Shown piece after piece: positions 55,614 to 58,584 of a DNA stretch of 64,000 nucleotides. Every line of letters starts with the position of its first letter. The stretch's first letter is position 1. Source of the DNA: an uncultured Lachnospiraceae bacterium (GTDB lineage Bacteria > Bacillota > Clostridia > Lachnospirales > Lachnospiraceae); assembly GCA_902793335.1 (NCBI GenBank), contig CADBCZ010000004.1:55414-119413 (forward strand). The letters are read 5' to 3'. The position numbers and the translations under genes were made by a program. The notes under the pieces are model-generated. The model saw only the letters and a program-made list of their open reading frames with translations. It had not been told where the DNA came from and ran no database searches.

Positions 55614-56063
55614 ATGAAATATAAAATAATATGTATAGGTAAGATAAAAGAACAATTTTATAGAGATGAAGTGGATGAACTTCTAAAATCCATCAGAAGA
55701 AAAAATGATGAGATAGATATAATAGAACTGCAGGATGCTAATATTCCGGACAAATTAAAAGCCTCTTCTATAGAGAAATTTCTTGAAAAAGAGTGTAAAC
55801 CCATCTATGGAAAGATCGAAAAAAACAATTTTGTCATTGCTCTGTGTATTGAGGGAAAGGAGATTACTTCGGATAAACATAGGGAAATTGTTCATAATGC
55901 TTTTGATTTTGGGAAAAATTGTATAACTTATTTGATAGGGGGTTCATTGGGACTTCCTGAAAATGTCAAAAAATTAGCTGATGTCAAAATGTCTTTTTCG
56001 AAGATGACATTTCCACACCAGCTTATGAGGATCATATTATTAGAGGAAATACTTCATTTGTGA
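55614..56063 (+). CDS. rlmH: RlmH-type 23S rRNA methyltransferase lacking the C-terminal tail
   Basis: A 149-residue SPOUT-class protein of the RlmH family, which methylates N3 of pseudouridine 1915 in 23S rRNA. The SAM-binding stretch YLIGGSLGLPENV (about 106-118) and FSKMTFPHQLMRIILLEE (128-145) are intact. It ends LLEEILHL, where the family continues with a tail of the form YRAxxIxxGxxYHK that reaches the active site. The N-terminal EYxKRL segment is also lost. Its last 10 bases overlap the opposing gene, whose product keeps both missing parts. It is probably functional only with that partner. Confidence 0.88.
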   Translation: MKYKIICIGKIKEQFYRDEVDELLKSIRRKNDEIDIIELQDANIPDKLKASSIEKFLEKECKPIYGKIEKNNFVIALCIEGKEITSDKHREIVHNAFDFGKNCITYLIGGSLGLPENVKKLADVKMSFSKMTFPHQLMRIILLEEILHL

Positions 56064-56458
56064 TAAGTTTTTCCTGTGATTATAGTATAACCTCTGTATA
56101 GTTGTTCCATAAACAGTAAAGCAGAGGTTTCTGCTGACATATCGAAGGCACTGATTGAGAGGATATCCGGATTACTGCTAAAGTCATAGATTCCGATTGC
56201 TACATGTAAGGTAGATATTCCGCTTATCTGTATATGATTAATGTAATCTGCCAGATCGGTGGATGAATGGGTGGATGTTCCTTTTTTTATAATTAAAAGT
56301 CTGTGATCCGGTTTATTTATATCTTTTGGCAGTTCGACTTTATTTTTTGCCGTCACTTTTACTGAACAATATGGTGAAAGACGTTTTGTGTATTCATTGA
56401 TAGCGGCCATATGAGTTTCTGATATTTTTTCTGTGTTAACATATAGAAAACAGTTCAT
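56054..56458 (-). CDS. Degenerate RlmH paralogue that keeps the C-terminal catalytic tail
   Basis: A 134-residue protein recognisable as RlmH by NEYTKRLSPY (21-30) and the tail MEQLYRGYTIITGKTYHK (117-134). The SAM loop is gone: IGIYDFSS stands where IGGSxG is expected, and FDMSAETSALL replaces FSxMTFPHQxxR. It therefore should not bind SAM but could supply the tail to a dimer partner. It converges on and overlaps rlmH. Its ribosome-binding site (AAAGGAG on the minus strand, 56464-56470) is part of a decayed palindromic repeat. Confidence 0.82.
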   Translation of the reverse strand: MNCFLYVNTEKISETHMAAINEYTKRLSPYCSVKVTAKNKVELPKDINKPDHRLLIIKKGTSTHSSTDLADYINHIQISGISTLHVAIGIYDFSSNPDILSISAFDMSAETSALLFMEQLYRGYTIITGKTYHK

Positions 56459-58495: not shown

Positions 58496-58499
58496 CTTA

Positions 58500-58571
58500 T
58501 GCACCAGATAGGAATCGAACCTACGCACCCGGCTCCGGAGGCCAGTGCTCTATCCATTGAGCTACTGGTGC
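58500..58571 (-). tRNA. tRNA-Arg (anticodon CCG)
   Basis: A 72-base cloverleaf on the minus strand. The 7-bp acceptor stem GCACCAG/CTGGTGC is perfect, the D arm is GCTC..GAGC, and the anticodon stem CTGGC/GCCGG encloses the loop CTCCGGA with anticodon CCG, reading the rare CGG codon. The T arm has TTCGATT in its loop. CCA is not encoded. Confidence 0.95.
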
Positions 58572-58584
58572 AATCACAACTGAT

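Follow-up and report, generated by a model that had tools for sequence, protein, structure and literature searches.

The closest described system is RlmH (also known as YbeA, OrfX or YydA; PF02590), the N3-methyltransferase of psi1915 in 23S rRNA. The E. coli enzyme is a small protein dimer with a functionally asymmetric active site built from two equal chains, whereby the SAM pocket comes from one monomer and the tail from the other (PMC5430550). Its second SAM site is described as empty below 500 µM, and activity was undetectable in the variants Y152F, H153F, R154A and E138A/Q (PMC5430550).

The window, i.e., the whole 64,000-nucleotide stretch of DNA analysed here from an uncultured member of the Lachnospiraceae, carries two convergent genes (alpha and beta), the products of which resemble RlmH by both profile and predicted fold. 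The features of the locus are as follows:

55614-56063, + strand: alpha gene, 149 aa; RlmH-like SPOUT protein with the SAM pocket kept and the C-terminal catalytic tail lost
55935-55952, + strand: SAM loop IGGSLG of alpha, corresponding to E. coli bight 2 (G103-G107)
56010-56021, + strand: FPHQ motif of alpha, containing E. coli H129
56054-56063: tail-to-tail overlap of alpha and beta, 10 bases
56054-56458, - strand: beta gene, 134 aa; RlmH-like protein with a complete catalytic tail and without the SAM pocket
56057-56065, - strand: C-terminal YHK of beta, corresponding to E. coli Y152-H153-R154
56378-56386, - strand: KRL of beta, with the two basic residues that monomer B contributes in E. 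coli (R25-R26)

The original prediction, made from the letters of the window, described two convergent open reading frames overlapping by 10 bases, which is what the coordinates give, and assigned to each product the motifs that the other had lost; the reading frames and the residue counts below bear this out. Alpha contains IGGSLG and FSKMTFPHQ and ends in ...LLEEILHL without the C-terminal tail. Beta contains EYTKRLSPY and the full tail, ending in YRGYTIITGKTYHK, and its translation has neither a G-loop nor FPHQ. The stop codon of alpha (TGA) lies on the complement of the YHK codons of beta. Read-through into a hidden alpha tail was ruled out, as the roughly 22 codons that follow the alpha stop contained no YHK in any of three frames; this held for 49 of 49 genomes (G008, matched to the locus of another genome, left out). 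Inside the beta gene, a terminator-like stem-loop was noted at 56120-56135 (- strand), one found against a shuffled mean of 0.4 (sd 0.6) and quite possibly a matter of chance; the only tRNA of the window (ARAGORN) is a tRNA-Arg with the anticodon ccg at 58499-58572 (- strand).

Against PF02590, alpha scored 123 bits (model positions 1-141 of 154) and beta 49 bits (10-154 of 154), both above the cut-off of 27. Neither reached the 172 bits of the NCBIfam RlmH equivalog, the best scores being 152.1 (alpha) and 42.8 (beta), and surveys or automatic naming may therefore miscount genomes with a split RlmH. The combination of a Gly-rich SAM loop and a Y-H-K/R tail in one chain, by which a single-gene RlmH is recognised, was found in neither protein, alpha having only the loop and beta only the tail. 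When the two window proteins are summed, the SAM-pocket and the catalytic residues are both present, with the glycines, L72 and H129 supplied by alpha, and R25 (as K), R26, E138, R142, Y152, H153 and R154 (as K) supplied by beta.

The AF2 models of the single chains had a mean pLDDT of 94.9 for alpha and 94.6 for beta. In Foldseek searches, the top 15 hits of the alpha model belonged to the RlmH family, with 1to0, 1vh0, 4fak, 1ns5 and 5twj among the best, and all 15 hits of the beta model with E <= 0.001 were RlmH-family structures. Both predicted folds thus match solved RlmH structures of the SPOUT fold, whereby alpha superposed with TM of about 0.8-0.9 and rmsd of 1.2-2.6 and beta more loosely, with TM of about 0.7-0.8 and rmsd of 4.1-6.9. 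The structure alignments comprised 43 (beta) and 39 (alpha) other rows picked from the retrieved loci. Beta has lost helix alpha-2, with a mean of 2.8 residues in the 46-64 region compared to 19.9 in canonical proteins. The window beta model also has no helix alpha-4, though residues align there (mean 10.8 of 12), and it keeps helices alpha-1, -3 and -5, which lie at the dimer interface in E. coli RlmH (PMC5430550). Among the interface positions, hydrophobic residues occupy 122 in 52/52 betas, 127 in 50/52, 125 in 36/52 and 74 in 3/52.

The active-site residues were counted in an alignment of 50 alphas, 52 betas and 47 canonical proteins at the positions given in PMC5430550 (E. coli numbering). 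Left out were the betas of G023 (a short extracted piece), G331 (outside the retrieved locus) and G1084, both genes of G387 (a near-copy of G444), and G661. The three SAM-loop glycines are present in 44/47 canonical proteins and 48/50 alphas but in 0/52 betas, and the pair Y152 and H153 in 47/47, 0/50 and 52/52, respectively; since betas were recognised partly by their tail and absent G-loop, these two beta counts arise partly by selection, the others less so. In the same order (canonical, alpha, beta), H129 was found in 47/47, 50/50 and 4/52, L72 (as L or M) in 47/47, 50/50 and 5/52, and R133, which was chosen here by its conservation and is not named in the available text of PMC5430550, in 45/47, 50/50 and 0/52. 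The opposite trend was seen for the basic pair R25-R26 (44/47, 1/50 and 52/52), R142 (47/47, 11/50 and 52/52) and a basic residue at 154 (46/47, 0/50 and 52/52). K42 of monomer A was present in 39/47, 35/50 and 7/52, while K11 and R43 of the same monomer occur in 1/47 canonical rows each and are uninformative here.

As far as these counts can tell, the kept and lost residues largely match the published division of the E. coli active site between monomers A and B, and the complementary losses expected along the composite site indeed fall mostly on its two sides. The division is not clean. The predicted catalytic loss in alpha holds for R142 (gone in 39/50) and the tail (gone in 50/50) but not for the glutamate E138 of the catalytic helix, which is retained in 48/50 alphas, as well as in 47/47 canonical proteins and 52/52 betas. 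Moreover, part of the N-terminal motif is still visible in the alphas of G325, G358 and G397.

Of the four residues Y152, H153, R154 and E138, each essential in E. coli, alpha lacks three, and beta is devoid of the SAM pocket; the simplest mechanism would therefore be a one-site alpha-beta dimer. With the halves divided between the chains in this way, a complete composite site could form only once per dimer. We consider it very probable that alpha and beta would act as the subunits of an obligate heterodimeric RlmH with one composite active site, so that the heterodimer proposed in the original prediction is supported. In such an enzyme, alpha would bind SAM, and beta, as a pseudo-methyltransferase in which the known SAM pocket is gone, would complement the pocket of alpha with the catalytic E138-R142-Y152-H153-K154 set and the basic R25-R26 pair. 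The dimer would possess one composite site compared to two in the homodimer and presumably work by single-site catalysis; its product, like that of RlmH, would be m3-pseudouridine 1915 in 23S rRNA helix 69. Exact matches to helix 69 of E. coli occur in the split single-contig genomes G358 (7 copies), G343 (3 copies) and G444 (5 copies) and in G060, a genome with canonical RlmH (4 copies), whereas none was found in the draft genome of the window. An RluA/RluD-family synthase scored above the cut-off in four of four split genomes searched, namely the window's own (G000), G358, G343 and G444.

In the whole genome from which the window derives (98.5% complete, 157 contigs), no third PF02590 match was detected at E <= 0.001. 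A search for a full-length RlmH elsewhere had been proposed beforehand as a check, and none turned up either in this genome or in the 51 genomes with both genes. Co-occurrence of the pair without canonical RlmH, also anticipated, was seen in 22/26 genomes of the genus, in 8 other genera of the family and in nine other families. The 22 genus genomes have exactly two PF02590 matches, one alpha-like and one beta-like, adjacent and convergent, and 4/26 have no match at all (completeness 77 to 91%). In total, at least 56 genomes carry beta, 51 of which also have alpha and no canonical RlmH. These at least 51 split genomes comprise 22 from the genus, 8 from other genera of the family, 11 from the order sample (four other families), 6 from the phylum sample (five more families) and 4 named records, so that the pair extends over the family and nine others plus four unclassified named genomes. 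The named records are a Lachnospiraceae MAG (SIG297), an Eubacteriales MAG (S2A_St_35), Youngiibacter fragilis and Eubacterium sp. An11, the beta of the latter carrying an insertion and being matched in two pieces.

Beyond the genus, the beta profile was run on 392 genomes of the order, 398 of the phylum and the named genome collection, and candidates were chosen by eye from the matches listed, after which their whole genomes were scanned with PF02590. Such searches cannot reveal alpha without beta, and the counts beyond the genus are lower bounds. In one set of 23 candidate genomes scanned in this way, 7 had one full-length canonical gene, 12 had alpha and beta (among them G661, the same genome as G376), 3 had beta alone, and 1 had a canonical gene and beta. 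For the family, 299 genomes from 298 genera were sampled, and the matches listed comprise 262 genomes with a single PF02590 match, 10 with alpha and beta (including 2 that belong to the genus of the window), 25 with none and 2 with a contig-edge duplicate of part of the canonical gene. The duplicates explain G279 and G120, which were rejected as split because the second match is an identical copy. None of the 262 single-match genomes has a second PF02590 match, and only G088 and G291 among them scored in the alpha range. Neither is a lone alpha, the match in G088 being a fragment at a contig edge that has the full tail, and that in G291 a single diverged gene of full length. In the diverged RlmH of G291 (L064), the usual motifs are replaced by IAGSLG and FTHL. 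In G208 and G267, the extra PF02590 matches lie only below the family cut-off. Among the 25 genomes without a match at E <= 0.001, some are 98 to 100% complete.

The genes are convergent within 200 bases in 36/51 pairs, and an overlap of exactly 10 bases recurs in G002, G006, G011, G012, G013, G021, G023 and G131. Convergent but distant genes were found in G156 (2.5 kb) and G331 (about 14 kb), and genes on the same strand, 0.05 to 8 kb apart, in G208, G267, G283, G662, G704 and G1051. On single contigs, the pair is separated by 410 kb in G358 and by 2.3 Mb in G343 (or about 0.9 Mb in the other direction should the contig be circular), and it lies on different contigs in G187, G397, G376, G467 and G660. 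The suggestion that the overlap ties the two genes together did not survive this comparison, as 15/51 pairs are tandem, distant or on different contigs with both genes kept; the overlap was rejected as a functional link, and the retention of the pair is explained more simply if both proteins are needed.

In the closest of nine gene pairs compared, dN/dS was 0.03/0.24 for alpha and 0.05/0.26 for beta, and dS was saturated in most of the remaining pairs. The dN of beta exceeded that of alpha in 9/9 pairs and was low against dS wherever the latter was measurable. From these substitution patterns, both genes look to be under purifying selection, and since the same two-gene pattern also recurs in 22/26 genus genomes, a pseudogene pair, plain decay or chance was rejected as its origin.

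The betas form one clade with SH-aLRT of 100, or 99 with the trait columns left out. The alphas do not form one clade on the trees, which imply 2 to 3 changes with canonical rows among the alphas, but the forks are weak, and monophyly of the alphas is not rejected (p-AU 0.479). Nor do the trees place alpha and beta as sister groups. The trees kept 8 (in one, 5) members of the genus, and one tree dropped 10 of the 47 canonical rows. For 48 pairs, the alpha and beta trees have 15/45 splits in common (shuffle mean 0.29, maximum 3), and the distances correlate with a Mantel r of 0.78 (shuffle maximum 0.20); such congruence is expected for any co-inherited pair. The history is in line with an old pair, of one or more origins, whose members were jointly inherited, lost or transferred. 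The pair would be old, would have replaced the canonical gene and would be passed on jointly, in most cases with the genes convergent and adjacent but in others without linkage.

Alpha is missing from five of the 56 genomes in which beta was found. Three are drafts from the order sample with neither alpha nor canonical RlmH, namely G388 (98% complete), G416 (78%) and G454 (88%), whereby G358, from the same genus as G388, has a nearly identical beta and alpha is present. The other two, Paenibacillus alkaliterrae and G1084 (2/51 genomes searched in that genus), have beta together with canonical RlmH, and their solitary betas lie in the following surroundings:

L093:3974-4375, Paenibacillus alkaliterrae: beta near a type I restriction subunit R and a YgjP-like peptidase
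L272:3995-4396, G1084: beta near a type III methyltransferase and restriction enzyme, helicases and an HNH protein

The expected strict pairing therefore stood in 51/56 genomes and failed in the three drafts and the two Paenibacillus-group genomes, although these counter-examples are not decisive. The solitary betas of the Paenibacillus group may represent a mobile form, pair with the canonical protein or have another role. It is quite likely, if slightly less so than the heterodimer itself, that the pair represents an old obligate heterodimeric class of RlmH in at least 10 families of the phylum, in which a pseudo-methyltransferase would provide the tail in trans and one composite site would suffice, with beta also travelling alone beside restriction genes in relatives of Paenibacillus.

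An important question is whether alpha could be a working homodimer on its own, with another residue replacing the tail and beta being a separate ribosome-binding or regulatory protein. The retention of E138 in 48/50 and of R142 in 11/50 alphas is in line with such independence, as are the five genomes with beta but no alpha and the existence of RlmH homologues that end at H153 without R154 (PMC5430550). However, 50/50 alphas have none of Y152, H153 and R154, 39/50 have no R142 and 49/50 no R25-R26 pair, and single changes at each of the three tail positions abolish activity in E. coli (PMC5430550). A self-sufficient alpha also leaves unexplained why beta has the residues of monomer B and why both genes jointly replaced the canonical one, which makes it improbable.

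Slightly more improbable still is the loss of the modification, with alpha as a relic and beta kept, e.g., for ribosome assembly or for occupying the inter-subunit face. The 25/299 family genomes without a PF02590 match, to which incomplete assemblies contribute, suggest that RlmH may be dispensable there; four of the five inactive E. coli mutants still bind ribosomes (PMC5430550), and three drafts have beta without alpha. A relic is at odds with SAM pocket residues conserved over 50 alphas, with the apparent purifying selection on both genes and with the presence of alpha beside beta in 51/56 genomes, unlinked cases included. A single canonical gene, broken and partly inverted by assembly or inversion, might at first sight account for a plus-strand gene lacking the tail that adjoins it on the opposite strand, but beta is a full RlmH-like domain rather than an inverted end. 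Moreover, the pair occurs in 51 genomes in several gene orders, three of them single-contig (G343, G358 and G444), and this recurrence refutes an artefact, the chance of which we regard as negligible. The one-site alpha-beta heterodimer is thus the reading that we prefer.

Heteromeric RNA-modifying enzymes that combine a SAM-binding subunit with a related partner without SAM are known, Trm6-Trm61 being one of them, although it is not a SPOUT protein and differs from RlmH in fold and target. Among SPOUT proteins, the duplicated yeast paralogues Upa1-Upa2 (YGR283C/YMR310C) co-purify and are assumed to form a heterodimer (PMC8994135), of which Ymr310c was named as a candidate inactive subunit (PMC1829167). 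They differ in being eukaryotic and of the SPOUT family COG2106, and the available parts of these papers describe neither a reciprocal split of a composite site nor a demonstrated rRNA target. In the mitoribosome of Trypanosoma brucei, mt-LAF5/mt-LAF6 is termed a SPOUT heterodimer in a large-subunit assembly intermediate; this mitochondrial pair is discussed there, as far as the available text goes, together with A-loop SPOUT enzymes and not with RlmH (PMC12123411). No description of a two-gene RlmH appeared among the matches listed in a literature search of titles and abstract openings (few subscription journals, no preprints). If true, the heterodimer would be natural evidence that the RlmH dimer needs only one of its two composite sites. 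Known RlmH is a homodimer with both halves in every chain, whereas in alpha and beta there is one half per chain, apparently encoded by separate genes in at least 10 families; since mutations can be placed in either half while the other stays intact, the half-of-the-sites question becomes directly testable.
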